Source: a virus
Virus record (IMG/VR): IMGVR_UViG_3300025316_000059
Coordinates: 1 to 25,742 of that record
Length of the DNA stretch: 25,742 nucleotides
Reading direction: 5' to 3' (one strand)
The position numbers were made by a program, and so were the translations under genes. Each line of letters starts with the position of its first letter. The first letter of the stretch is position 1. Shown here piece after piece: positions 130-23,105 of this stretch. The notes under the pieces are model-generated. The model had not been told where the DNA came from. It did no database searches and was given only the letters and a program-made list of their open reading frames with translations.

Positions 130-1038
130 CTAAATCGTAGTTATATCATCGCCGACAGAAAGTTCTTTAGCATATAAAAATTTATCATTTTTAAGAAATG
201 GATGTTCATCAGAACAAATGACTGAATAACCATCTTCAAAAGTGATTTTATAACATTCAGGTTCCCCCTCTAAAAGAGTTTCAGGGTTCCAACTATGTGT
301 AACAATTTTTGGCCCATCTTGTGTCTTAACTAAACACCCAGGAACAATATCTTCAATAGATTTCAATGAGCCATCAAACATTTGGATTTTTGTGCCTTCT
401 ACTAAACATCCACCACTCACGACTGGCTTACTGTATAGTTCTTGTGTCATGTAGATATGGTTTACTGCAATCATTGGGATATCATACTTAACCAAATATG
501 GTGTAATCATTCTAAAGATTGACTTCATTTGCTTTGCGCGACTCATATCTTGAGTACTTTTACCGGCAATAGCATCTTCCATTTCTTTCTTACTAGACAT
601 GTTACCAAGAGAATCAACAACAAAGATTACTTTATCACCACGTTTAATCTCTTGAAATTGGTGCATGATGTCAAATTTAAACTCTTCCATATCCATAATT
701 GGAGTATGTACTACACGTTCTTTATCAATACCAAGTGAATCGAAATATGATTCAGGTGTACCGAACTCACAATCATAGAACACAAGAACAGAATCTGGGT
801 ACTTGTCCATATATGATTTAGCAAGGATCAATGAGAACAATGATTTAAAATGCTTTGATGGTCCGCAGAACAATGTTAGTCCAGGAGTCAAGCCACCATC
901 AATTCTGCCTGATAATGCAATATTCAGTGCAGGGATTGGTGTTGTGATCATATCCTTCTTGTTAAAGAACTTAGAACTCGACAAAATCGAGGAGTCCTTA
1001 ATTGTGCTGTTCTTTTTAATTCTATCCAATAAACTCAT
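130..1038 (-). CDS. uvsX: UvsX recombinase N-terminal part fused to split-intein IntN
   Basis: This is the RecA-like recombinase of T4-type phages, which coats single-stranded DNA and drives strand exchange for recombination-dependent replication. Residues 1-210 align with the start of T4 UvsX: Walker A GPSKHFKS at 59-66, Walker B-like VIFVVDSLGN, and the NHIYMTQE stretch. At Cys211, right after VVSGG (T4 continues GGGTGPM), the sequence becomes an intein N half of 92 residues. It starts with Cys1 (CLVEGTKI, block A) and carries the block B histidine in ICSDEHPFL, then stops. The last third of UvsX is missing. It should be encoded past the left edge behind an IntC, to be joined by trans-splicing. 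The ATG follows AGGAAC 15 nt after gp43C. IntN resembles the gp41-1 class of split inteins. Confidence 0.9.
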   Translation of the reverse strand: MSLLDRIKKNSTIKDSSILSSSKFFNKKDMITTPIPALNIALSGRIDGGLTPGLTLFCGPSKHFKSLFSLILAKSYMDKYPDSVLVFYDCEFGTPESYFDSLGIDKERVVHTPIMDMEEFKFDIMHQFQEIKRGDKVIFVVDSLGNMSSKKEMEDAIAGKSTQDMSRAKQMKSIFRMITPYLVKYDIPMIAVNHIYMTQELYSKPVVSGGCLVEGTKIQMFDGSLKSIEDIVPGCLVKTQDGPKIVTHSWNPETLLEGEPECYKITFEDGYSVICSDEHPFLKNDKFLYAKELSVGDDITTI

Positions 1039-1052
1039 ATTTTGTTCCTGTT

Positions 1053-2510
1053 TCAGTTAAAGAAATCATCTAGTGTACTTGCTTCGGTCTTATCTATAAC
1101 ACTAATAACTTTCTGTTTGATTGGTTCTACGAAAGTACCAGCATCAAAGAAATCTCCTAGTGTGTTTAGCTTTTCTGTTTGCCACCCCATACAATCCAAT
1201 ATAACTTTAATTGGGAGGACAAACGTCTTTTCATACTGCATATCATAATCTACATACTTATCTAATCCAAATTCGGTCGGTAACCGCCCAGGAAATGATA
1301 TGACATCATTCTTGATTGGGTTTGGCATTTTAAGATATGTGAACTTTAGCTTTTCACCTTCCTGGATATATGGATACTTCTTTTCTAATCCAAGTTCGGC
1401 AAGGTATAGATTGTATAATAATGCACCTCTTACATGAATTGGTGTGCGTGACTTGTATATAGTTAAGTCACTAGCGTATTTGTCCAGCCCATTAACCCCT
1501 CGTGGGAATGATATTTCTTCTGGTGGTAGCTCAAAGAAATCACTCTTAAATGTGTCGATGAATTCATGTATATCGGTTTCTGTCCCGTTCAACATAATTT
1601 CAATAGACTTCTTCATTTTCTCACGAATAGCTGATGGTGTTGAAGATTTCACCATTTCTAGTCCAGTTATTTTGATCTTTGGTTTTGCATATTGTACACC
1701 TTCATTGTTATACACGTTTAGGATGTAACGTTTCTTCGCTGTCCAGATACCTTTATCACACAACGCTTCACGCTTCATTACCATCTTTTGTGCATATGCA
1801 TGAACATAATCAGCTAGTTCTTGATAGGATTTATCTATGTGTGGTTGTATTCTATCCTCACATACTCTATCCATAAAAGAAATGACTTTATTAGCAGGTA
1901 TAGAAACCTTACCTTCAACTCCATATACTTTAGTAACAAGTTCTGCTAGTCTCAAATATACAGAATCTGTATCCATATAAACAACATAATCGACATCAAT
2001 CGTTTTCATTAAGGAGTTCATATACGTATTAATTGATTTCTCAATCCAACGAACTGATAACTGCCCCGCAGAAGTTACTGATGAAGCTAATCTTAGATCA
2101 TAAAACCTGAAGAATCTAGAACCTGTAGCACCATATGCAGAAACTAATGATTCTTTCTTGGCACGTTGTAGGTTATTGTATCTAGCAATCTTCTTGATCA
2201 AATCAGCTTTCTTATCTGAATCAGTCTCTATTTGGTACTCACTTTCAGCCGCTAACATTATGTTCTTGTATGTACTACGTTGAACATACATATCCTCTAG
2301 CATCTTTGGCAAAAAACCTTGAGAATCTGTTCTAAATAATTGTCCGTTTGGGGTGAGTGTGCATTGCATTGGACCAAGAAAAGATGTGTCTATAGATTTG
2401 GTTAGTAAGCTACCAATATCAACCTCACTAATTTCTGTATGATATAACTCAATAGCACGAAGTTCTTTTTGTAGGTCTTCAGTGGATAACCCTTGTACGT
2501 CACGAAACAT
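1053..2510 (-). CDS. 43: DNA polymerase gp43, C-terminal piece (palm, fingers, thumb)
   Basis: This is the C-terminal 485 residues of the family B replicative polymerase. It has the motif B region (AKKESLVSAYG followed by FYDLRLASS), motif C YMDTDSVYL with the catalytic aspartates, the thumb (KAKKRYILNVYN in T4 equals TAKKRYILNVYN here), and a C-terminal sliding-clamp binding tail (STLDDFF). Motif A and the exonuclease are encoded in two separate upstream genes, so this chain is inactive alone and must assemble with them. The ATG overlaps the stop codon of the preceding HNH gene as TAATG, which implies translational coupling. The usually invariant Asn of motif B (NSLYG in T4) is Val here. Confidence 0.93.
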   Translation of the reverse strand: MFRDVQGLSTEDLQKELRAIELYHTEISEVDIGSLLTKSIDTSFLGPMQCTLTPNGQLFRTDSQGFLPKMLEDMYVQRSTYKNIMLAAESEYQIETDSDKKADLIKKIARYNNLQRAKKESLVSAYGATGSRFFRFYDLRLASSVTSAGQLSVRWIEKSINTYMNSLMKTIDVDYVVYMDTDSVYLRLAELVTKVYGVEGKVSIPANKVISFMDRVCEDRIQPHIDKSYQELADYVHAYAQKMVMKREALCDKGIWTAKKRYILNVYNNEGVQYAKPKIKITGLEMVKSSTPSAIREKMKKSIEIMLNGTETDIHEFIDTFKSDFFELPPEEISFPRGVNGLDKYASDLTIYKSRTPIHVRGALLYNLYLAELGLEKKYPYIQEGEKLKFTYLKMPNPIKNDVISFPGRLPTEFGLDKYVDYDMQYEKTFVLPIKVILDCMGWQTEKLNTLGDFFDAGTFVEPIKQKVISVIDKTEASTLDDFFN

Positions 2511-3043
2511 TATTTACACCACTTCTTTCTATTTTCGGTAATTGTCAAAATCTGTACATTGTTTGGGTGATGTAGTCCACCTTTGGCTATGGAGATGATA
2601 TGGTCTACTTCGTGTCCTTTTGGACAGTTTAAATAATATTCTTGTAATTCATGTTTCTCTGCATCAGTAAGTTCAGGGGATTGTTCTTTCATTCTAGCTC
2701 TCCATCTAGCAGAAATTTCATTTCTGATCCTGCGCTTGTGGTCTTCACCAAGATATCTACTTTGCTGGGAACATGAAGTTCCGCAGTATTTTGATCCATA
2801 ATTTTCACTTTCAGTACGGAATCTCTGTGTTTCATATTCTTCACCACATTGTAGACAAATAACTAAAGACTTTCGTTCCTTGTTCTTACATTCTAACTCG
2901 AATGGTTTTTTTATGTTAAATTTTTGTAGTTGCTTTTTAATATTGGCATCAGAACATCCAAAATATTCAGCAACATCGTTTCTTCTCATGTTATTAATAA
3001 TAAATAATTCATAAAGTTTGTCTTTTGTTATATTGTATTTCAT
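2510..3043 (-). CDS. HNH homing endonuclease splitting gp43 (mid/C junction)
   Basis: A 177-residue protein. An N-terminal helix-turn-helix (RRNDVAEYFGCSDANIKKQL) is followed by a four-cysteine zinc ribbon (CLQC ... KYCGTSC) and a C-terminal HNH nuclease motif (GHEVDHIISIAKGG ... NNVQILT). This build is typical of free-standing phage homing endonucleases. I start it at the ATG at 3043 because AGGAAG lies just upstream; an in-frame ATG at 3070 has no comparable site. It sits between the gp43 middle gene (stop at 3073) and gp43C, whose ATG overlaps its stop. Expected activity is cleavage of an uninterrupted gp43 near the insertion point. No intron core fits in the flanking 29 nt. Confidence 0.88.
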   Translation of the reverse strand: MKYNITKDKLYELFIINNMRRNDVAEYFGCSDANIKKQLQKFNIKKPFELECKNKERKSLVICLQCGEEYETQRFRTESENYGSKYCGTSCSQQSRYLGEDHKRRIRNEISARWRARMKEQSPELTDAEKHELQEYYLNCPKGHEVDHIISIAKGGLHHPNNVQILTITENRKKWCK

Positions 3044-3072
3044 GATCTTCCTAAATAAGTATCCACACATGG

Positions 3073-4134
3073 TTATATAGTGCTTCTTAATCTTAACTCA
3101 TTTATCAACTCATGTTTTCTCGCGTTAATATAATTAGGATCAACGAGATTTTCAGGTGAGATGCAGTATTGAATCATAATATGTGGATACAGTGAGTTTA
3201 AATCGAAACTCGCCACCCAATCATGTTTACCAATCTGTGGAGATTTTACATATGCACCATCAAACTGTTCCTTTTCTTTGTGTTCACTTTGTGGCACAAT
3301 GATGTTCCTTTCTAATAGATAGGAGTACGTCATGGAATCCCACATACAAGTTTGTTTAAACACATCTTCAAGGTTAGTCTTGGTATCATATGCTAGAGTA
3401 AGTGCTAATTCTAAAAGCTTTAGCTTATCCTCCATCATCATAATCAGCTTAACGTCTTGTACGTTATATTCAATATATTTTTGAAAGTTTAACGTATACA
3501 ACTGATGTAAGTTCTCAAACTCTTCGTATGATAATTTGCTTTCACCAAGTTCAACATTGGCTATATTGTCTAATCTATACGATTCTTGAGATCTCCCACC
3601 TGGCGCATACCATTTATACAATTCAAGATAATCTAATGATGCAACACCCATAATTTCATAAGTATTCTGAGATTTACCATGCATACCTTTAACTTCTCGT
3701 TCGAGTACATTACCCCACGGAGATAGTTTTCTGGTTAATGGTTCACCTAGAATTTTATTGAATCTATTGACGATGTATGGTATATCGAAGAATTTGGTAT
3801 TCCATCCAGTAAGAATATCTGGACATTTAATCATCCAAACCTCAAGAAACTTCTTACATAATGTATATTCATCTTGGCATTTGATATAGATTTCTTCGCC
3901 TTGGGTAATATAATCACCACAACCAAACACATATGTACCATCATTAACAAAAGTTATTGCTATAGCTGTAATTGGTTCGTTTGCTTTATATGGATCAGGA
4001 AAACCACCGGTCTCTAAATAACAACTATTCTTAATATCAATCCAGTCTTGTTTGCTTTCATCCCAAACCTCATAACTATCATTATTGTACTGACCAATAT
4101 CTGATAATTTTATCTCTATATTTTCACTTTTCAT
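3073..4134 (-). CDS. 43: DNA polymerase gp43, middle piece (exonuclease II/III and palm motif A)
   Basis: A 353-residue fragment that matches T4 gp43 from just after exonuclease motif I to just after polymerase motif A. Visible parts are GGFPDPYKANEPITAIAI (T4: KFPDPMKAEYEIDAIT), Exo II GWNTKFFDIPYIVNR, Exo III YIEYNVQDVKLI, and motif A SFDLNSLYPHIM with the first catalytic aspartate. It begins with about 45 residues that T4 lacks (up to NSCYLET). It ends ELRLRSTI; the C-terminal piece resumes with RDVQGLS. The start codon lies inside the end of the upstream HNH gene (11-bp overlap). The metal-binding residues of one polymerase active site are thus divided between this gene and the next one. 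Confidence 0.9.
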   Translation of the reverse strand: MKSENIEIKLSDIGQYNNDSYEVWDESKQDWIDIKNSCYLETGGFPDPYKANEPITAIAITFVNDGTYVFGCGDYITQGEEIYIKCQDEYTLCKKFLEVWMIKCPDILTGWNTKFFDIPYIVNRFNKILGEPLTRKLSPWGNVLEREVKGMHGKSQNTYEIMGVASLDYLELYKWYAPGGRSQESYRLDNIANVELGESKLSYEEFENLHQLYTLNFQKYIEYNVQDVKLIMMMEDKLKLLELALTLAYDTKTNLEDVFKQTCMWDSMTYSYLLERNIIVPQSEHKEKEQFDGAYVKSPQIGKHDWVASFDLNSLYPHIMIQYCISPENLVDPNYINARKHELINELRLRSTI

Positions 4135-4915
4135 TAATATATTTGTTCCGCAAATTGATAAATCTGTTACGCATCTTAATACTCTTTGTGTTCAGAAATA
4201 ACTCAAATTCATCATCTGACATATTAGAATATCTAGTACCCATAATTTCTTGTTGGTTAGTTTTCTTTCCTATTTTAGATTTAGATATTTCTAATCCTCG
4301 TTGTACATGGTCACATCGTCTTAGGCTATTATCAAGTCGAATTTTTTTATCTGATATTGATAATGTATCGATATATGTAACCATAGAATTGCTTGTTTTG
4401 TTAGGATTCTTGGGTGAATGTGCTGCGGTTATATATTGCCTTTTTTCTTTAATATAACATGAAAATGTTTCACCACAACCACATAAACAAGTTCTTAGTT
4501 CCCTATAGTTTGATTTCATCAATAAACTTTTAGTTTTATATTCGTCTGTTGAGTAATATACACTCAAAGCTTTGGATATTTTAATCTTAATATCAAGTTC
4601 TCTACAGGGATGATTTTCTGAAAACTTTCGTCTAATCCAACCATATAATTTATTATTTCTTTTCTGACCATCATCACATATAGTCATCATCTTAGCAGAA
4701 TATATTAGTTGTTTGTTTTTAGGGTTAATTTTAACCAACAACAAATGGGCCAGATAATGTTCTTCTGGAGTCAATAATACTAAATTAAAATCATCATCCT
4801 TTCCAGACATACACCTAGGTATTATGTGATGATTTTCATAATACTGTTCACCCCTAACACGATCATAATTTTTACGGGTTGAGATTAAGTTGTTATAAAT
4901 TTTAGAATAGTTCAT
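4124..4915 (-). CDS. HNH homing endonuclease splitting gp43 (N/mid junction)
   Basis: A 263-residue protein beginning MNYSKIYNNLIS. The HNH motif is ENHHIIPRCMSGKDDDFNLV followed by LTPEEHYLAHLLL, the common T4-phage homing nuclease type. A CxCxC zinc-binding segment follows (RTCLCGCGETF), then a basic C-terminal half that probably binds DNA. The ATG at 4915 is chosen because AGGAG lies 7 nt upstream. A start at 4951 would lie upstream of the transcription start expected from the late promoter at 4936-4943. The last 11 bp overlap the start of the gp43 middle gene. Only about 45 nt separate this gene from the end of gp43N, too little for a group I intron. Confidence 0.9.
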   Translation of the reverse strand: MNYSKIYNNLISTRKNYDRVRGEQYYENHHIIPRCMSGKDDDFNLVLLTPEEHYLAHLLLVKINPKNKQLIYSAKMMTICDDGQKRNNKLYGWIRRKFSENHPCRELDIKIKISKALSVYYSTDEYKTKSLLMKSNYRELRTCLCGCGETFSCYIKEKRQYITAAHSPKNPNKTSNSMVTYIDTLSISDKKIRLDNSLRRCDHVQRGLEISKSKIGKKTNQQEIMGTRYSNMSDDEFELFLNTKSIKMRNRFINLRNKYINEK

Positions 4916-4935
4916 AGTTTTCTCCTGTATATCTA

Positions 4936-4943
4936 TATTTATA
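4936..4943 (-). promoter_or_regulatory. T4-type late promoter (TATAAATA) for the gp43-N/mid HNH gene
   Basis: Minus-strand TATAAATA starts 18 nt after the gp43N stop codon and ends 20 nt before the HNH ATG at 4915. It would give the endonuclease, and by coupling the middle polymerase piece, late expression on top of read-through from the early promoter at 5416-5444. Confidence 0.7.
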
Positions 4944-4960
4944 ACAACCAACTTCTATAT

Positions 4961-5389
4961 CTATGTTTTTTTACGAACTAAAATCTTCTTGTCTGGTATG
5001 TTGGCATATTGACCGTCACCTACTTCGATATCGATTATACCAATAAGAACATTTTCTTTATCGTATTCGATCATACCTTTGTGTTGATCAGCAATAAAAG
5101 CGTACTCATAGCGAGTATTGCCGTATATTGGTGATGCATTAGATACACCATCAAATTGCTTCACATAATCTTTAGCATCTTTCATGCTATCGAATTTCTT
5201 CTGTTCTAGAAATTTACCATGCAGATTCTTAAAATCTGTTGGCTTTTTAGATTCTATGTATAGCGATGGTTCATATTCAATCTTCATCTTGATACGTTTA
5301 CCATCTTTAACACCACGATAAAGAATGCTATTGCCCCATGCTTTTACATTTGTATAGAAATCGTTTGACACTGTTTCAGAATTACTCAT
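4961..5389 (-). CDS. 43: DNA polymerase gp43, N-terminal piece (to exonuclease motif I)
   Basis: The 142-residue N terminus of the replicative polymerase. FYTNVKAWGNSILYR parallels T4 FYISIETVGNNIVER, then FDSMKDAKDYVKQF (T4 FPSMKDARDWMKRM), and near the end exonuclease motif I as IIDIEVGDG with the Asp and Glu metal ligands. The chain ends PDKKILVRKKT at a TAG stop; the middle gene resumes the fold 826 nt further on. The break falls inside the 3'-5' exonuclease domain, so proofreading also needs reassembly of chains. The start follows an AGGAAA site and lies 27 nt below a near-consensus early promoter. Confidence 0.9.
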   Translation of the reverse strand: MSNSETVSNDFYTNVKAWGNSILYRGVKDGKRIKMKIEYEPSLYIESKKPTDFKNLHGKFLEQKKFDSMKDAKDYVKQFDGVSNASPIYGNTRYEYAFIADQHKGMIEYDKENVLIGIIDIEVGDGQYANIPDKKILVRKKT

Positions 5390-12305: not shown

Positions 12306-12334
12306 ATTATACCCTAATAAATTTAGGGTGTCAA
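12306..12334 (-). promoter_or_regulatory. Consensus sigma70 early promoter with palindromic spacer
   Basis: Minus strand TTGACA (12334-12329), 17-nt spacer, TATAAT (12311-12306), a perfect consensus. The spacer is itself an inverted repeat (CCCTAA ... TTAGGG), which could be an operator or just chance. It drives the glycosyltransferase-like gene 30 nt below. Confidence 0.85.
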
Positions 12335-12419: not shown

Positions 12420-12983
12420 TTACAGTTTGATCCCACAACGTTTTATAGTTTTCCTTTGTTTCTTCACTGCCATTTCTAGTGCTAATGGTTTGGCTAGGGT
12501 ATAGAACGCTATACCATCTAGGTTATTTACCTGTTGCTGAACAATTCTGGCAGATAGTCCACCAAAGAATTTGTTGTGTTTCTCTCCATTAAAGTCTTGG
12601 TATTCTACTTCTATTGATATTGGTCTCTTGATTTTCAATTCAAGGAACGGCACGGTTAATGAGTTCTCAGGTAATTTTATAGTAGTTGCCGAAATCGATA
12701 CAATCTTTGGATTGAAGAATGCGACATATTCATCATCGACACCCATTACAAATACTCTATGAGGAAATCCGCATTGTGGGCCAGATAGTGATAACCCATT
12801 ATGTGCTTTACATGTCTCTACCAATGTTGATGCAAATGCATTAGCGTATTTACCATTTATCCCGAAATCAAATTCTGGTGTTTGTTCAACAGGGCCTCCA
12901 TAACGTAAACTAAACGTTTGTGGTTTTGGTTGTGCGATAGGTTTTGACTGCTCTTCTGTATTGAACGTTATTACATCACTCAT
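12420..12983 (-). CDS. Peptide deformylase-like protein lacking all metal ligands
   Basis: 187 residues. The fold of peptide deformylase is clear: motif 1 as NGLSLSGPQCG (GxGLAAxQ), an FNP strand, motif 2 as PENSLTVP (EGCLS) and motif 3 as RIVQQQVNNLDG (QHEMDHLxG). The motif 2 Cys is Ser, and the HExxH of motif 3 reads QQxxN, so all three metal ligands and the catalytic Glu are gone. Active deformylase genes occur in cyanophages, so this looks like a relative with a non-enzymatic role, for instance binding the ribosome exit or nascent N termini. That role is inference. The frame is intact, with no sign of decay. It lies just downstream of gp46 and ends at a hairpin terminator. Confidence 0.8.
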   Translation of the reverse strand: MSDVITFNTEEQSKPIAQPKPQTFSLRYGGPVEQTPEFDFGINGKYANAFASTLVETCKAHNGLSLSGPQCGFPHRVFVMGVDDEYVAFFNPKIVSISATTIKLPENSLTVPFLELKIKRPISIEVEYQDFNGEKHNKFFGGLSARIVQQQVNNLDGIAFYTLAKPLALEMAVKKQRKTIKRCGIKL

Positions 12984-12992
12984 AATATACTC

Positions 12993-14711
12993 CTATAGTT
13001 TAGCGATTCGTGAGAAATTCCCACTCTTTTCAAATTTTATTACTGACCTAAATCGATCAAATAAATGATCGCCGCGATGACTAATCACGAATAAGTTTGT
13101 GTCGTCATCAAATTCTTCGAATATTTTAAATAGATTATCTATAGATGCGTCATCCATAGAAGAGTCTAGTATCTCATCCATTATCAATATATTAGTATTG
13201 GTTGAGTTCTTCATCTTAGCAACTTGTCGCCATGTTAGCAATAGTGCTAAATCTATCTTTGTCTTCTCACCTTCCGAGAAGTTTGTATATTTGAAATCGT
13301 CTCTATGTCTAGATTTAATAGTCTCATCAAAGTTTTCATCTATGTTGAAGTTAACGAAGAAATCCATTGCCGATAGATACTTATTTATTAATTTATTCAT
13401 TACCGGCAAGTATTGCTTCACGATTCTAGTTTTGATGCCCGTATCTTTCAGTAGATTAGATGCATATTCATAGTATTGTTTCTCGTTGGCTAAACGTTCT
13501 TGTTCGGTCATAACTTTTTGTAGGTATTCTATCATAGTAATGAGCGTACCGTTATCATTCTCAATAGTATCTTTACGAAAAGACAGAAACTCTATCTCTT
13601 TGTTTATCTTATTGATGTACTGATTCATTGCGGATATCGTTGAGTTGTTGCTAACGATTTCATTATTATGTTGTGTTATTTGTCTATTGATAACTTGTAT
13701 ATCGGATAGTCTAGCATTTAGTCGTTGAATTTCCGCAGATATCTCACTAACACCTTTGTGTATTTGGTCTCGTTTAGTTGTCTTTTCGTTGACTTGGTTA
13801 GTCTTAAAGTCTACATCGAGCACCTGTCTACATGTAGGGCAGTCATCGTTTTGATGATAGAAAGCAATATCTTTGTTGATCGTCTTAATGCTGGATTCTA
13901 ATTTAGCCTCCATTTGAATCATCTTTCTAGATTTTGTTTCCACAGAAAGTTTATCATCTATTTTTTTCTGTAGAAATTCGATATGTTTCTGTATTAATAC
14001 ACCATCAGCAAGTAGACGTTCATTCTGTAATTGAGAAGTTTCAATTTCTTCCAGTTTTCTAGCAACTTCTTCATCATTGTGTTTTTTATGTTCATCTATG
14101 TTCTTCTTCTGCAATTTTATCTTTTCAGATGTTATGTTTAGCTCATATTTGTTGTTGGATGAGTCATCTTTAATGTTTGATAATTTCTCCTTAACTAGAG
14201 AATTCATTGATGAGAATATCTGAATGTCTAATAAATCTTCAATGATAGCTCGTCTATCGGCCGCAGAAAGTTGCATAAATGGGACGAACGATGCAGAACC
14301 TAGTATAACTACCTGAGTGAACGATTTGAAGTTCAGTTTCAGAATAACTTTCTCAAGATAATCTTGATAGTCCTTAGCTTTAGCATCCTGATTTATTAGT
14401 ACCCCAGCACAATATATCTCGAACACATTAGGCTTGATGCCACGTATGATCTTATATTCCTTTGTACCAATGATGAACTCGACCTCAACTACACCATCAG
14501 ACGCATTGATACTGTTTAGGATATTACCTTTATTGATCTTGCGGAAAGGCTTGCCAAATAACACAAAACACAACGCATCTAACATTGTACTTTTTCCAGC
14601 ACCATTAGAACCAATTATCAATGTGTTCTTAGATGAATTGAGCTTTATTTCGGTAAACACATTACCAGTGCTTAGTATATTCTTGTACCTTAATAATTTA
14701 AAAATAATCAT
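12993..14711 (-). CDS. 46: Recombination nuclease ATPase subunit gp46 (Rad50-like)
   Basis: 572 residues (T4: 560). An SMC-type ATPase that works with gp47 to resect DNA ends for recombination and host DNA breakdown. It has Walker A GSNGAGKST (34-42), long coiled coils with a central zinc hook CPTC, the ABC signature NFSEGEKTKIDLALLL, Walker B ILIMDE and the H-loop VISHRGDH. The start codon overlaps the end of gp47 by 4 bp (ATGA), so the two subunits are translationally coupled. Confidence 0.96.
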   Translation of the reverse strand: MIIFKLLRYKNILSTGNVFTEIKLNSSKNTLIIGSNGAGKSTMLDALCFVLFGKPFRKINKGNILNSINASDGVVEVEFIIGTKEYKIIRGIKPNVFEIYCAGVLINQDAKAKDYQDYLEKVILKLNFKSFTQVVILGSASFVPFMQLSAADRRAIIEDLLDIQIFSSMNSLVKEKLSNIKDDSSNNKYELNITSEKIKLQKKNIDEHKKHNDEEVARKLEEIETSQLQNERLLADGVLIQKHIEFLQKKIDDKLSVETKSRKMIQMEAKLESSIKTINKDIAFYHQNDDCPTCRQVLDVDFKTNQVNEKTTKRDQIHKGVSEISAEIQRLNARLSDIQVINRQITQHNNEIVSNNSTISAMNQYINKINKEIEFLSFRKDTIENDNGTLITMIEYLQKVMTEQERLANEKQYYEYASNLLKDTGIKTRIVKQYLPVMNKLINKYLSAMDFFVNFNIDENFDETIKSRHRDDFKYTNFSEGEKTKIDLALLLTWRQVAKMKNSTNTNILIMDEILDSSMDDASIDNLFKIFEEFDDDTNLFVISHRGDHLFDRFRSVIKFEKSGNFSRIAKL

Positions 14712-15769
14712 ACACGTTCACTATTCAATGCTTCAACATATATTTCATGTAGGATACCTTTCAACCTAGAGTTGTCTATATTATCCTCCTGTACAGAATC
14801 AACGAACTTGTTCAGTATGGCTAATGTGTCTTCTGATTGAGTAATTATATCATCACTACCGTTCTCGGTCAAGTCAATTACATCCTCTATGATAGTAACA
14901 TCAGTGGGGTTGACACTATACAAATGTTCCATGAATTTGTCGAATCGGTATGGGTCATTCTTGTTCAACACAATCACCTTAACATATCTATCAGTGACAT
15001 ACGAGTAATCTACTTGTTCGGAATTCTGAACAGAGTCATCATATACCACCTTGAAGAACATATCATTAGGGTTTGGTACGAATTCTAGTTCAAAATTCTG
15101 AACATCGTACAAATGGAACCCGCGAACATCCTCATAATCAGACCACGTTAATTGGTACGGATTGCCGAGGTAGTATATGCTATCAGCACTAGATCTATGG
15201 TGGTAGTGTCCAGAGAATGTGTTCATGAACTTTCTGAACATTGATCGCTCTAACCCATCATGTGCAGCCATACCTCTATACATAGAGAATCCCGCTATCT
15301 CGAAGTGTCCCATACATATTAGTGCTTTGGTATTACTGATCTCGTCCAGACATTCTTGATAATTATCTGCACATATCCAAGGGATCATACAGATAGATAC
15401 GCCATCAACAACAATGGTCTGTGGGGTATCTATCACACTCACGTTTGGATACTCGTTCAATAGTAGGTCAACCGAATTGGTGTTGTTACTATTCTTATGA
15501 AAACAATCGTGGTTACCTGCCAGCATGTGTACTTTAATGTTCAATGATTGCAGCTTATCAAAGAACATTTCCTTGGTTCTCTTTAGTGTTAAGAAGTTTA
15601 CATACTTGCGTCTATCGAAAGTATCACCAAGTATTAATAGTGTATTGATATTGTTAGCCACTAGTGACGGAAAGAAAGTTCCATCATAGAACTGTTCATA
15701 GAAATCTAGAAATGTAATGCTATCGTTCCTGGCACCGAAATGTTGATCCGTTATAATTGCTACTCTCAT
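14708..15769 (-). CDS. 47: Recombination nuclease subunit gp47 (Mre11-like)
   Basis: 353 residues from the ATG at 15769, with GGAG upstream (T4: 339). A metal-dependent phosphoesterase nuclease, partner of gp46. The motifs are in order: TDQHFG near the N terminus, LGDTFDRRK, AGNHDCFH, GHFEI and SGHYHHRS. The C-terminal part is acidic and probably carries the gp46 contact. It follows gp55 by 12 nt and has no promoter of its own that I can see. Confidence 0.96.
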   Translation of the reverse strand: MRVAIITDQHFGARNDSITFLDFYEQFYDGTFFPSLVANNINTLLILGDTFDRRKYVNFLTLKRTKEMFFDKLQSLNIKVHMLAGNHDCFHKNSNNTNSVDLLLNEYPNVSVIDTPQTIVVDGVSICMIPWICADNYQECLDEISNTKALICMGHFEIAGFSMYRGMAAHDGLERSMFRKFMNTFSGHYHHRSSADSIYYLGNPYQLTWSDYEDVRGFHLYDVQNFELEFVPNPNDMFFKVVYDDSVQNSEQVDYSYVTDRYVKVIVLNKNDPYRFDKFMEHLYSVNPTDVTIIEDVIDLTENGSDDIITQSEDTLAILNKFVDSVQEDNIDNSRLKGILHEIYVEALNSERV

Positions 15770-15781
15770 AATGTACTCCAA

Positions 15782-17609: not shown

Positions 17610-18422
17610 TCACCTAAGATTAATTTTGTATAATTTAAATTCGAATTTCTCTTCTGTATAGATTTTAGTGCGATCCATAAAATGTTTCAGCGTGAAATTT
17701 ATGTGTTTCTTGTGCCTGATATCATCAGCAATATCATATAGTGTTGCAACTTCTTTACCATCAGACTGTCTTAATCCTCTACCAATACTTTGTAAATTTC
17801 TAACACGACTCTTGCTTGGTGATGCAAATATGATATTATGTAGATTTCTAATAGAAACTCCTGTAGAATAAACACCAAATGACGCTACAATAATTGCATT
17901 AGTTTCAGATTCAACGATCTTTCTAATAGCTTCTCTATCATCAGTAGAAGTTCCACCATGAACAAAGAACACTTTTCTGTCGCCTATTTGCTTCGAGTTC
18001 TTAATAAGATTATACAGTACTTTACCGTGTTTGTCTACCAGCTGGAACAGTACAAGAGTGTTATTCTTCATGCTAACTGACAGATTCTTAATGAATTTAT
18101 TACGAGTCTCATTTGATATTAAGTAATCTATTTCCTCTTGATATGTGCAGGTCTTTAGCGACGCACACGCTTCTTCAGGATGTTTTAATACAAGACATTT
18201 AATGTTAAGGTCGGCAATTTGTTTATTATCAATAAGTTCCTTTGTTGATATAACTTTCTTAACAGTGCCAAATAATCCCTCGATCACTAATTTATGGCAA
18301 TTATGAGATAGTATGGTGTTTGCATAGTAATTATGATTGTCTTCCACCTCTATGTCATATACAACATCATTATAATCATAAAGTGTTTCTATCTTCAATA
18401 TTTTAGTTGTGTTATTTGACAT
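17610..18422 (-). CDS. uvsW: Split-intein IntC fused to UvsW helicase C-terminal part
   Basis: 270 residues. Residues 1-41 are an intein C half: block F VYDIEVEDNHNYYAN and block G ILSHN ending in the His-Asn pair, followed by Cys42 as the +1 nucleophile. From Cys42 the chain is the second half of UvsW: LFGTVKKVISTKELIDNKQI (T4 MFGEIFKPVTTSKLMEDGQV), TYQEEIDYLI, then helicase motifs IIVASFGVYSTGVSIRNLHN and SIGRGLRQ. N-extein (269) plus C-extein (229) gives 498 residues against 503 in T4, so splicing would rebuild a full-length protein. The start codon overlaps the end of the GIY-YIG gene by 11 bp. Confidence 0.94.
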   Translation of the reverse strand: MSNNTTKILKIETLYDYNDVVYDIEVEDNHNYYANTILSHNCHKLVIEGLFGTVKKVISTKELIDNKQIADLNIKCLVLKHPEEACASLKTCTYQEEIDYLISNETRNKFIKNLSVSMKNNTLVLFQLVDKHGKVLYNLIKNSKQIGDRKVFFVHGGTSTDDREAIRKIVESETNAIIVASFGVYSTGVSIRNLHNIIFASPSKSRVRNLQSIGRGLRQSDGKEVATLYDIADDIRHKKHINFTLKHFMDRTKIYTEEKFEFKLYKINLR

Positions 18423-19170
18423 GTGCTGACCACCCTCTCCATTTACCCTTAATTGCTGGTATGCCAGTTTTCAGTGAGTTTTTAATTGATGCCGGTAAGC
18501 AACAATTATGATTAATCCTGAACCAATGTCTTATGCCGATATCAATAATATCATAACAATTACCAGCCGGATCAATTATGACGTAATCATTCTTGCTAAC
18601 ATGAATACCTTTCTTCATTTCTGAAAGTTTCTGTTTAGTTGATTCTCTCATAGGTTTACCTTTATTCCAAGGGACGCGGCCCAAATTAGATGAGCTGATC
18701 TTTTCCCTGGTTGATTCTGATAGAGCATTGCCTATCTTAGCAATTCTTCTTATTTCTTTTAGTTCATTTGATTTGTGTGTACCGTATAAATCATCATATG
18801 ATGTGTCTCTGGAGTATCTTCCAATTTTTTCCTTAGATTCATCAGTATGCACCATCCCAAGTGTTCCTCCATTTGACACGCCACTCTCATACATCAAATT
18901 TGCCCATCTATTAGAATTTACTATGTCGTTTTCTAGTGAAAACCATTTGGCATATGATAACATCTCATCTTCATCATAAAATAAATATGACCACAATGTA
19001 TTAACGAAAATTTTACCGTGTTTATTTATGTGGTTCTTCCAGTATGTTCCAGACCCTAGATATTTGTTAATATCTGGTCTTTTTGTCATACCAAAATAAC
19101 ACAGTCCGGTAATCTCATGATATTTTATGTATAGGTGTGTTGGTGTGGTTGGTATATTATATATACTCAT
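18412..19170 (-). CDS. GIY-YIG homing endonuclease between the uvsW halves
   Basis: 252 residues. GIY-YIG domain: THLYIKYHEITGLCYFGMTK, then KYLGSGTYWKNHINKHG and a WANLMYESG segment shared with the other GIY-YIG protein. NUMOD3 DNA-binding repeats follow (SKEKIGRYS, TREKISSSNLGRVPWNKGK, TKQKLSEMKKG), then a C-terminal domain ending KGKWRGWSAHVK. It lies exactly between the IntN and IntC genes of uvsW, so it probably cuts intein-less, unsplit uvsW near helicase motif III. It has its own late promoter and structured leader. Its last 11 bp overlap the IntC-UvsW start. Confidence 0.93.
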   Translation of the reverse strand: MSIYNIPTTPTHLYIKYHEITGLCYFGMTKRPDINKYLGSGTYWKNHINKHGKIFVNTLWSYLFYDEDEMLSYAKWFSLENDIVNSNRWANLMYESGVSNGGTLGMVHTDESKEKIGRYSRDTSYDDLYGTHKSNELKEIRRIAKIGNALSESTREKISSSNLGRVPWNKGKPMRESTKQKLSEMKKGIHVSKNDYVIIDPAGNCYDIIDIGIRHWFRINHNCCLPASIKNSLKTGIPAIKGKWRGWSAHVK

Positions 19171-19195
19171 GCTGATACTCCTTTAAAGTGTTAGA

Positions 19196-19236
19196 ATATG
19201 CGGATGCGCTAACATCGTGGCATATAACTATTTATA
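19196..19236 (-). promoter_or_regulatory. Late promoter and conserved leader hairpin, GIY-YIG gene 2
   Basis: Minus-strand TATAAATA (19236-19229) begins 5 nt after the stop codon of the UvsW-IntN gene. The leader hairpin is ATATGC/GCATAT (6 bp), internal loop CAC opposite C, GATG/CATC (4 bp), 6-nt loop: the same shape as at 17557-17586 but with different paired bases. Confidence 0.75.
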
Positions 19237-19240
19237 ATTA

Positions 19241-20329
19241 TCATGATATGACCAATTCATCAGATAAGCATAAATCTTCAGCACACACCCATCCTCTATT
19301 AGTGGTGTATATTTTATGTTTTGGTGTCACGATTATATACGATTTTTCGGTATATATCTTTATCATTTCATTAGATATTCCATTATTGAATGTGTTTAAT
19401 ACTTTTTTATACTCGGTTTGTTGTGAAATTTCGTTGTAAGTTAAAACCACGTCATTCGTAGTCACTTCAGATATTTTTTTGGTGCCTTCTTGTGTAGTTA
19501 TTTGGGTATCTTTATCAAAACATTTCATGCCGGATAATGTACCGGTCAAACCTATTCGATACTTTGTGTTTAGTAGCTTTTCCATGGTGTCACGTATAGA
19601 GTTTGCTTGAGCTAAATGGACCTCATCACACATCACATAATCAAATTGTTCAAAGTATGAGCTATCCTGTTTATACACAGATTGCCATGTAGATATGATA
19701 AGCTTCTTATTAGAATCCTTATCCTGTCCTTGATACACTTTATGTACATTGCTATCTACATCAAACCCATTACCACTTGAATAGTCTTCAAAATCAGAAA
19801 ATAACTGAGACACAAGATTTACTGTTGGTACTATGATAAGTCCTTTAAGATCCTGATACTGCAATAGCTGCCTGAATATAAGGTATATTATTAGACTCTT
19901 ACCACTACTAGTGGGTGATAGTAATAGTGCTCGTTTCTTCTGCATAGAATGTACAAACGCAACCGCTTGATGTTCATTAACTGTTATTGGTTTACCGTGC
20001 GCGTGTAGATTCAAGTCTGAAAAGAATTCTAGTGCTATCTTTGCAGAGAATTCGTCTTCCATATCAGCATTGGTATGGTCGTATTCATACGTATAATCGT
20101 GTGATTCACAAAATTCCACTATGTATGGTATTAGACCAAAATACAACAGATTAGTCTGAGTGTTCAATAGACGAATCTTACCATCGAATATCTTATTCCT
20201 GTATGATGGCATGAATTGATATCCTGGCACCATGAATGTAAGTGTATCAGATAGCTCCTGTGCTATAGCTCTTTCGCACGACACCTTTGCATATACTTCA
20301 TTCTTCTTTGAGATTATTATATCAGCCAT
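19241..20329 (-). CDS. uvsW: UvsW helicase N-terminal part fused to split-intein IntN
   Basis: 362 residues from the ATG at 20329, directly after the uvsY stop (TGATAATG). UvsW is the superfamily 2 helicase that unwinds branched DNA and R-loops and shifts T4 to recombination-dependent replication. Residues 1-269 carry Walker A LSPTSSGKS (137-145), IVPTVNLVSQ, the DEVH box (235-238) and motif III GLTGTL. At Cys270 the intein begins: block A CFDKDTQITT and block B IIVTPKHKIYT with the TPKH histidine, ending at LSDELVIS and a stop. The 93-residue IntN pairs with the 41-residue IntC at 18300-18422. The insertion lies right beside motif III, so neither half should be active alone. Confidence 0.95.
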   Translation of the reverse strand: MADIIISKKNEVYAKVSCERAIAQELSDTLTFMVPGYQFMPSYRNKIFDGKIRLLNTQTNLLYFGLIPYIVEFCESHDYTYEYDHTNADMEDEFSAKIALEFFSDLNLHAHGKPITVNEHQAVAFVHSMQKKRALLLSPTSSGKSLIIYLIFRQLLQYQDLKGLIIVPTVNLVSQLFSDFEDYSSGNGFDVDSNVHKVYQGQDKDSNKKLIISTWQSVYKQDSSYFEQFDYVMCDEVHLAQANSIRDTMEKLLNTKYRIGLTGTLSGMKCFDKDTQITTQEGTKKISEVTTNDVVLTYNEISQQTEYKKVLNTFNNGISNEMIKIYTEKSYIIVTPKHKIYTTNRGWVCAEDLCLSDELVIS

Positions 20330-20331
20330 TA

Positions 20332-20769
20332 TCAAACACCGCTCGTGAACTTGGTCCAATCTATGAATGATCTAAGCTCCCAATTACGGTTCTTTATTTC
20401 CCCCATAATAGATTCTAGTGCGTATACACATTCATCATGAAACATTTTGCGTTCTAGTATCTTTATTAGGTTCTTATCTGCATCCAAATAACCACCTAAC
20501 TCAGCCTTTAATACAGTTAGTGGTGATGGTTCCCATCCATGCAGTATCAATTCGTCTTGTGATAACTTACCTAGATGCCACAAGCTTCTTAAATTCTTCA
20601 TTTGTGCGTAAGAAGACTGTGCTTTCTTTGCGGCAAGTTTGTGCTTTACCAGTATGGAAAGGTATTTGTTGTGTAGTTTTGGGATATTGATGAGTTCATT
20701 ACCTGGCTGAGTACGATCCATTTCTGCATCGATTGACCATAACTCAAGGACTTGATCTAGTGTTTTCAT
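20332..20769 (-). CDS. uvsY: Recombination mediator UvsY
   Basis: 145 residues (T4: 137). UvsY loads UvsX onto gp32-coated single-stranded DNA. The cyanophage-type version is recognisable: LDQVLELWSIDAEMD, IPKLHNKYLSILVKHKL, LYHLGKLS-like WHLGKLSQDELILHGW, then a helical tail ending EIKNRNWELRSFIDWTKFTSGV. It immediately precedes uvsW. The 5' side contains element copy 2 and a late promoter at 20975-20982. The nearest Shine-Dalgarno (GAGG) is 10 nt from the ATG, a little far. Confidence 0.88.
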   Translation of the reverse strand: MKTLDQVLELWSIDAEMDRTQPGNELINIPKLHNKYLSILVKHKLAAKKAQSSYAQMKNLRSLWHLGKLSQDELILHGWEPSPLTVLKAELGGYLDADKNLIKILERKMFHDECVYALESIMGEIKNRNWELRSFIDWTKFTSGV

Positions 20770-21605: not shown

Positions 21606-23105
21606 ATGAAATATTCTCAAGAACTTATCGATCTATGTCTATCCAAGACAACACAGCAAATTTCAAAAACTCCACTATATCGTGAGTTATTAATAAACCA
21701 AACCAAATTCCTAGATAATGTGTCTGGAGTTGTGTTGGGGACTAGAAAATATTGTGTAAATAACAATATACACGAAATTCCTAAGTGTAAAAGTTGTGAT
21801 AGTTTTTGTACTGTGAACAGACTTAATTCTAAACTTGGGTTCACTACATACTGCTCACCAAAGTGTTCTAGAGCATCAAAAACCGTCATTAAAACTGTGG
21901 AGGTGCTACTTAGTAATAGGGATTGGTTGTACAATGAAAGAATAGTGTTGAAAAAATCTAAGGAAGTTATAGCAGAAGATCTTGGTATCTCTATCACTCC
22001 TGTGAACAAGTGGCTAGGCATTCATAACATACCAAATATCAAATATAATTGCTCACATCCAAGTGCTGTAATGAAATTGTCGGATAAAGATTGGTTGTAT
22101 GACGAGCATAAAAATAAACATAGAACATGTTCTGATATAGGAGTTGGACTTGGCGTTAGTAAAAGCATGGTATCTGTATGGTTGGCCACACACAATATAA
22201 TGGCGAATGAAGCAAATTCATATGATAGATTATCCAATAAAAGTTCCGCTGAATGTGCTGAAGTTTCTGATTACATAAAATCCATATATGATGGGGAAAT
22301 ACAATTAGATAAACGTGGTGTTATCGGATCATTAGAATTGGATATATATCTCCCAGAAATAAAATTAGCCATTGAGTATAATGGATTATATTCACACATT
22401 TATAGGCCAGAAGAATCTAGCTTTTCTGGTAGAAAGGATAGTAACTATCACTACACAAAAACTAAACTTTGTAATGAACAAGGCATACAATTGCTGCACA
22501 TATTCTCTGATTCTTGGAAAGAGAGATCGAGTGTGTGGAAGTCTTTCATCAGCAATAAATTGCACAACAATCAGTACAAAATATTTGCTCGTAAATGTAT
22601 AATAAAAGAAATATGTGTCAGTGATAAGAATAATTTTCTTGATGATAATCACATACAAGGAAAAGATAAGAGTAGGTTTAAGTATGGTATGTTTTTTGGT
22701 GAAGACCTTGTAGCTGTCATGACGTTTGGGGTGTCAAGATATTCAAAGAAATATAAATGGGAGTTGATTCGTTTTGCTATCAAGAAAAATTACTGTGTTG
22801 TTGGGGCATTCTCTAAACTACTAAAACACTTTAGGAAAAATAATGAAGGGTCTATTATATCGTATGCCGACAGAACTTATTCCAATGGGGACGTATATAT
22901 TAACAATGGATTCACATTAATATCAACCAATAAACCTGGATATCATTATGTGGCCAAGAATGTCGAGAAGAGATTACATAGATCTAATTTTGTTAAGTCT
23001 AAGATTTCGGTATTTGGGGACACTAGAACTGAACAAGAGATTATGTTTGATATGGGATATTCTAAAATATATGATTGTGGTACGCTTTCTTTTGCTATTT
23101 GGTAG
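21606..23105 (+). CDS. Vsr-like (EDxHD-type) homing endonuclease
   Basis: 499 residues, the only confident plus-strand gene. An N-terminal zinc ribbon (CKSC ... YCSPKC, 61-87) is followed by two helix-turn-helix units, each introduced by a DWLY motif (about 107-142 and 162-198). The nuclease core is SLELDIYLPEIKLAIEYNG (242-260), then KTKLCNEQGIQLLHIFSDSW, the pattern of Vsr/PD-(D/E)xK-like phage homing endonucleases (Hef and the EDxHD family found at fractured-gene loci). The C-terminal 180 residues form another domain found in such proteins. AGGA lies 8 nt before the ATG. It sits between gp23 and the gp3-like gene, transcribed against both, and ends at a bidirectional terminator. Confidence 0.88.
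   Translation: MKYSQELIDLCLSKTTQQISKTPLYRELLINQTKFLDNVSGVVLGTRKYCVNNNIHEIPKCKSCDSFCTVNRLNSKLGFTTYCSPKCSRASKTVIKTVEVLLSNRDWLYNERIVLKKSKEVIAEDLGISITPVNKWLGIHNIPNIKYNCSHPSAVMKLSDKDWLYDEHKNKHRTCSDIGVGLGVSKSMVSVWLATHNIMANEANSYDRLSNKSSAECAEVSDYIKSIYDGEIQLDKRGVIGSLELDIYLPEIKLAIEYNGLYSHIYRPEESSFSGRKDSNYHYTKTKLCNEQGIQLLHIFSDSWKERSSVWKSFISNKLHNNQYKIFARKCIIKEICVSDKNNFLDDNHIQGKDKSRFKYGMFFGEDLVAVMTFGVSRYSKKYKWELIRFAIKKNYCVVGAFSKLLKHFRKNNEGSIISYADRTYSNGDVYINNGFTLISTNKPGYHYVAKNVEKRLHRSNFVKSKISVFGDTRTEQEIMFDMGYSKIYDCGTLSFAIW

Follow-up and report, generated by a model that had tools for sequence, protein, structure and literature searches.

We identified a phage gene of the peptide deformylase (PDF) family in which the metal-ligand Cys, both His ligands and the catalytic Glu have been substituted, while the reading frame is intact and the gene is kept by selection. 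PDF is the enzyme that trims newly made bacterial proteins. The fragment that carries the gene is 25,742 bases long, comes from a T4-like phage and makes up the entire virus record (hereafter the window, meaning the whole stretch of DNA analysed). Since its catalytic residues are lost and the gene is preserved, we classify it on sequence grounds as a putative pseudoenzyme; judged from the substitutions, its product would be able neither to bind metal nor to deformylate. We tentatively favour the explanation, which we rate somewhat short of an even chance, that the gene has been retained because the folded protein binds something, docking without chemistry, with the ribosome exit as the likeliest site.

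Sequence and predicted structure

The T4-like genes of the window include those for the major capsid protein gp23, UvsW and UvsY, genes 44 to 47 and 55, and a RegA-like regulator. The pseudo-PDF gene (12420..12983, minus strand) appears in the ORF list as 187 codons and a stop, beginning with an ATG; a Shine-Dalgarno-like GGAG can be read six bases 5' of this start (12990..12993, minus strand). The 187-residue product matches Pfam PF01327 (E 6.5e-25; 88 bits, cut-off 22.8) and the PHROG 2890 'peptide deformylase' family (E 1.7e-23), and its top solved-structure match by sequence is a Thermotoga PDF (E 4.6e-15). Membership of the PDF family is therefore not in doubt. Against the NCBIfam equivalog TIGR00079 the protein scores 60.8 bits, under the cut-off of 103.95. 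Profile, fold and the Gln of motif I are those of a PDF; motifs II and III are not.

The features of the protein listed in this paragraph are all encoded on the minus strand. The N-terminal extension (residues 1-21, MSDVITFNTEE..KP; 12921..12983), which is present in intact relatives too, includes T9, a residue that is at least 95% conserved. The motif I region reads GLSLSGPQCG (12768..12797) and retains Gln70, yet it differs from intact relatives by G65S, A68G and N69P. In motif II the codons GAG AAC TCA TTA ACC specify ENSLT instead of EGCLS (12654..12668), which places Ser108 at the position of the metal-ligand Cys. In motif III, CAG CAA CAG GTA AAT AAC specifies QQQVNN instead of QHExDH (12522..12539), with the first His replaced by Gln150, the catalytic Glu by Gln151 and the second His by Asn154. 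A first-pass annotation, made from the sequence alone, had reported both motif replacements in an intact frame, and direct reading of the codons confirmed them. The C-terminal helix (residues 166-183; 12435..12488) is basic and superposes on the C-terminal part of E. coli PDF.

AlphaFold modelled the window protein with a mean pLDDT of 91.5, compared with 91.8 for the intact relative L057; the 74-row alignment used consists mostly of intact PDFs, so that the fold predicted for the substituted protein is partly carried by them. The N-terminal extension was modelled with low confidence (pLDDT blocks of 62 and 69). All matches listed by Foldseek (50 rows) and by VIA-align (50 entries) are deformylases. 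VIA-align superposed the model on the PDF of phage S-SSM7 (3uwa) with a Z score of 23.7 and 1.3 A over 140 residues, and on the E. coli enzyme (1icj) with a Z score of 23.6 over 162 residues. In the latter superposition, model residues 22-186 align to residues 1-168 of 1icj, and the C-terminal helix is included.

Distribution and phylogeny

From four IMG/VR scans, together with a profile search of the loci retrieved, we obtained 111 distinct PDF proteins, including that of the window. All four of Cys, His, Glu and His are present in 102 of them; two end before motif III and seven have residue losses. Six of the 111 (the window protein, L002, L003=L004, L005, L050=L051 and L052) form a single clade with 100/100 support, which survives removal of the motif columns (SH-aLRT 99); the other members share between 58 and 92% identity with the window protein. 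The nearest relatives found for the window PDF are intact phage PDFs, in trees that were built without archaeal, trypanosomatid or other cellular type 3 or accessory PDFs. Read error was excluded as the source of the substitutions because the same kind of loss recurs across samples, in contigs L002 to L005 and L050 to L052; in two cases (L003/L004 and L050/L051) the same protein was recovered under two sample numbers.

Motifs II and III read ENSLS and HQLDN in L050 and L052, ENTLT or ENSLT and QQLDN in L003 and L005, and ENSLT and QQVNN in the window protein and L002. Other QQxxN members, for which the first reading had suggested a phylogeny, are L002 (QQVNN) and L003 to L005 (QQLDN), which fall into one clade with the window protein. 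The accompanying statement that every metal ligand is replaced is correct for the window protein and for L002 to L005; it does not extend to L050/L051 and L052, members of the same clade that retain the first His. Since these proteins still have the first His, complete loss was stepwise. In the simplest order Cys, Glu and the second His would have been lost first and the first His later, followed by the Asp and the motif I residues.

The substitutions are concentrated at catalytic positions. Among 67 intact relatives, 52 columns are at least 95% conserved, and 37 of these are kept in all six sequences of the clade. Only four of the 52 are altered in all six (C108, E151, H154 and Y160), and three of the four (C108, E151 and H154) are catalytic columns (hypergeometric P 7e-4 for at least three), on which basis chance loss of catalytic residues was rejected. 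The fourth change, Y160 to Phe, need not be harmful, because Phe is the most common residue at this position among PDFs generally, according to PMC5591237. The seventh relative with losses, L099 (ESCLS and HQLDL), is placed among intact PDFs in the full tree; a joint clade of L099 and the window group was not rejected (p-AU 0.595 in one test and 0.066 in another).

For comparison with isolates we used a hand-chosen set of 23 phage records, in which the ligands are intact in 21 and lost in two Rhizobiales phages, Ochrobactrum phage vB_OspM_OC and Rhizobium phage RHph_I1_18. The vB_OspM_OC protein has ANM in motif I (Gln to Met), DDVCPL and QRAIEA, with one Cys still present, and that of RHph_I1_18 has EEISPS and QQLIEI. 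The His/Glu/His positions of motif III are thereby occupied by Arg/Ala/Ala and Gln/Leu/Ile, respectively. Both proteins are annotated as peptide deformylase, and both genes start inside the end of gene 46. The word deformylase does not occur in the main text of the vB_OspM_OC genome paper (PMC7139368).

In a tree inferred without the motif columns, the window clade (98/97) is separate from vB_OspM_OC and RHph_I1_18. A common loss for the window clade and the two isolates was rejected (p-AU 0.013), a result that is qualified by long end branches (2.2 to 2.5) in the tree; for a single loss shared by the two isolates, p-AU was 0.179. Because the common clade is rejected, at least two independent losses of the PDF active site in phages appear likely from the sequences.

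Each of five isolate records, including the whole records of vB_OspM_OC and RHph_I1_18, contains a single PF01327 match. A second match to this family was also sought in 25 IMG/VR records (that of the window, 14 and 10 others), and each contained one, the records of the window clade being fragments. Genome contigs searched with the alignment of the clade gave 72 pattern matches and no relatives, and viral contigs searched with the RHph_I1_18 and vB_OspM_OC proteins gave no match.

Genomic context

Directly upstream of the pseudo-PDF gene is a gene 46 homologue (SbcC-like; 12993..14711, minus strand; phrog_77, E 3.2e-165), separated from it by nine bases, and a gene 47 homologue lies beyond (SbcD-like; 14708..15781, minus strand; phrog_100, E 2.9e-111). 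A gene 46 end is found upstream in all 105 distinct relatives that could be judged, the other six of the 111 being cut; its distance from the PDF gene is at most 50 bases in 87 and at most 1500 bases in the remaining 18. The PDF gene also adjoins gene 46 or lies near it in several isolates. The order uvsY-uvsW-55-47-46-PDF-...-phrog_1574-45-44-62 is common to substituted and intact relatives (37 loci, some of them incomplete). Given this shared slot behind gene 46, the substituted gene is most simply the orthologue of the active PDF in place and not a spare copy.

The constancy of the slot is also an argument for the main rival to ribosome docking, in which the protein would serve the gp46/47 complex, or another product of the same DNA-metabolism operon, as a non-catalytic subunit or regulator, a role that its active relatives would already have had. 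The N-terminal extension, common to intact and substituted forms, would suit such a role, as would the pelagimyophage PDF, which PMC7029224 assigns to the core genome and to a DNA-metabolism operon. Synteny does not equal interaction, however, and the cyanophage PDFs that were sampled are located elsewhere. We consider a gp46/47 partner fairly unlikely.

Between the pseudo-PDF gene and the phrog_1574 gene, a promoter-like site can be read (TTGACA-N17-TATAAT; 12306..12334, minus strand), the spacer of which holds an inverted repeat (CCCTAAAT..ATTAGGG). L003 and L050/L051 have a comparable site in the corresponding position, and the pattern is without a match in L002 and L005. Its position in the window suggests that the pseudo-PDF gene ends the 47-46 transcription unit.

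On the 3' side, a gene of the DruA family (PF14236/DUF4338), which takes its name from the Druantia defence system, directly follows the PDF gene, sometimes overlapping it, in 88 of the 98 judged relatives outside the clade; seven more of these 105 relatives were too short to be judged. Examples are L010:6576-7835, L037:6587-7960, L194:6590-7933 and L200:2940-4238. Within the clade a DruA-like gene is present only in L052 and is absent in the other five members, and homing endonucleases occupy the slot in L002 and L003. Loss of the DruA-like gene was rejected as a simple cause of the loss of the active site, as L052 and L099 both have a substituted PDF and an adjacent DruA-like gene. In other relatives the slot holds a protein with an SPPYF motif, by eye DNA methyltransferase-like, or an ORF that by eye is glycosyltransferase-like (L148:6573-8153, L120:6333-7274), and it looks as if modification genes have been exchanged there.

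Elsewhere in the window, the UvsW helicase gene is in pieces (17610-20359, minus strand): its N part (19241-20359) ends in an intein N-terminal region, a further ORF (18412-19170) contains a NUMOD3 motif, and the C part of the helicase is fused to an intein C-terminal region (17610-18422). In sequence, this locus resembles a split intein whose halves flank an endonuclease gene. A UvsX/RecA-like protein recognized by eye (130-1038, minus strand) enters an intein N-terminal region and then reaches a stop near the window edge, possibly representing a second split intein. The DNA polymerase gene, also recognized by eye (1053-5389, minus strand), appears as three ORFs (4961-5389, 3073-4134 and 1053-2510), between which lie an ORF without a Pfam match (4124-4951) and one with a weak HNH match (2510-3070). 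The longest plus-strand ORF (21606-23105, 499 aa) has an endonuclease-like look and a weak Mom-family match.

Evolutionary constraint

The pseudo-PDF gene is under purifying selection. Nonsynonymous change is depleted in all five pairs compared within the clade (Fisher p 8e-8 to 7e-26); dS exceeds 1.4 in three of these pairs, and for those three we therefore rely on the counts and not on the ratios. The dN/dS ratio of the window gene and L002 is 0.117, and 16 pairs of intact PDFs span 0.053 to 0.191. For L050 and L052 the ratio is 0.305, higher than in all 16 intact pairs, and constraint is therefore somewhat relaxed. No stop codon or frameshift was found in the six distinct sequences, the most divergent of which shares 58% identity with the window protein.

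Constraint is unevenly distributed along the protein. Averaged over pairs, identity in the motif regions is 0.70 for the clade and 0.82 to 0.92 for intact PDFs arranged in 25 nested groups of similar depth; because these groups overlap, the comparison is descriptive and carries no significance test. Identity in the N-terminal extension, the 113-141 sheet and the C-terminal helix lies within the range of the intact groups, and this group-wise control weakened the idea that constraint on the helix and sheet of the clade is raised. As far as sequence identity indicates, extra constraint is gone from the active-site motifs only, and the N-terminal extension, beta-sheet and C-terminal helix retain theirs.

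This pattern bears on whether the protein could be a reader or decoy of formyl-methionine, whose cleft would bind formylated N-termini uncut and either shield them or compete with the host deformylase. All six clade members retain Gln70, Gly63, Leu66, Glu106 and Leu109, and the replacements are near-isosteric (Cys to Ser or Thr, Glu to Gln, His to Asn or Gln), which would favour a cleft that still binds. The motif regions that line the cleft are nevertheless without extra constraint, motif I of the window protein is itself altered at three positions, and the motif I Gln has become Met in vB_OspM_OC, so that we regard this reading as unlikely. The first-pass annotation had offered an inhibitor or decoy of host N-terminal processing in broader terms. 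This is possible in view of the C-terminal helix, which superposes on that of E. coli PDF and remains basic in the clade, but a decoy acting through the substrate cleft fits poorly with relaxed constraint that falls exactly on the active-site motifs.

The gene could alternatively be decaying, the deformylase being no longer needed and frameshifts yet to accumulate. In line with decay, one pair has a raised dN/dS, active-site residues continue to disappear along the clade, and five of its six members have lost the neighbouring DruA-like gene. We judge it quite unlikely given the uninterrupted frames of six diverged sequences, the strong depletion of nonsynonymous change in every pair, and clade-wide changes that target catalytic columns rather than scatter. 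A different chemistry, with a hydrolase formed from the new polar residues or another metal held in the same pocket, is very improbable, since the four positions, although all polar in the window clade, vary among its members, and the isolates carry Arg/Ala/Ala or Gln/Leu/Ile in place of the His/Glu/His of motif III.

Predicted role

Docking without chemistry, the explanation that we favour, would begin with an ancestral active PDF that a T4-like phage encoded in the conserved position after genes 47-46. Catalysis would then have been lost in steps, with Cys, Glu and the second His preceding the first His, while the retained basic C-terminal helix, beta-sheet surface and N-terminal extension would bind the same partner as in active relatives. 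If this partner is the ribosome exit region, the protein would, in the infected cell, occupy the site used by the host's N-terminal processing factors. The suggestion in the first-pass annotation that a pseudoenzyme was kept for a binding role is supported, at the level of sequences and a predicted structure, by clade-wide loss, intact frames, purifying selection and a confident PDF model.

The extension at the C-terminus is described in PMC5591237 as important for the binding of E. coli PDF to the ribosome, and viral PDFs are said there to be without it; the window PDF family has such an extension, unlike the viral PDFs described there. Every one of the six clade members has a C-terminal tail with a net charge between +6 and +8; the tail charge is +2 (hardly basic) in vB_OspM_OC and +3 in RHph_I1_18. 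As the helix by which PDFs bind the ribosome is retained, we place docking at the ribosome exit first among the candidates, with a partner in the gp46/47 operon as its main rival. Our confidence in this ranking is low in view of the weakly basic tails of the two isolate proteins, and with such tails ribosome docking may not hold for the group of vB_OspM_OC and RHph_I1_18.

More broadly, and with greater reserve, we suggest that the PDF of T4-like phages could have a second, non-catalytic core function tied to the slot behind 47-46, either ribosome docking or docking in recombination or late expression. Deformylation would in that case be dispensable, so that separate lineages could shed the active site and keep the body, the N-terminal extension and the C-terminal helix.

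Why phages carry deformylases is an open question, and conservation of the motifs has been taken to suggest that phage PDFs are active (PMC5591237). PDFs that selection has kept despite the loss of their active sites, probably of at least two origins and representing the sole PDF match in two isolate genomes, argue that the benefit is partly non-catalytic. As two of these phages have been isolated, a direct test is possible. Caution is advisable where databases label such genes 'peptide deformylase'.

Comparison with known deformylases

The window protein resembles the active phage PDFs of S-SSM7 and Vp16 in fold (1.3 A to 3uwa and 3uwb), in family match and in the Gln of motif I. It differs from them in that Cys, both His and the catalytic Glu are replaced, and in its full C-terminal helix. 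Viral PDFs are characterized in PMC5591237 as having strictly conserved motifs and shortened C-termini, and all were suggested to be possibly active.

PDFs with little or no activity have been described in archaea, trypanosomatids and some bacteria (PMC5591237, PMC12690207). The type 3 PDFs of archaea and trypanosomatid mitochondria and the accessory PDFs of S. aureus and S. pneumoniae likewise have substitutions in their catalytic motifs, as outlined in the same two sources; these proteins are cellular, whereas the window PDF is encoded by a phage gene in a T4-like DNA-metabolism operon. A literature search by title or abstract start, with subscription papers mostly outside its scope, returned no report of a phage PDF without its active site.

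The closest counterparts of the window gene are the substituted PDFs of vB_OspM_OC and RHph_I1_18, which share with it the slot behind gene 46, membership of the PDF family and replacement of all three His/Glu/His residues of motif III. They differ from it in their substitutions (DDVCPL with QRAIEA, and EEISPS with QQLIEI) and, given the rejected common clade (p-AU 0.013), in their probable separate origin.
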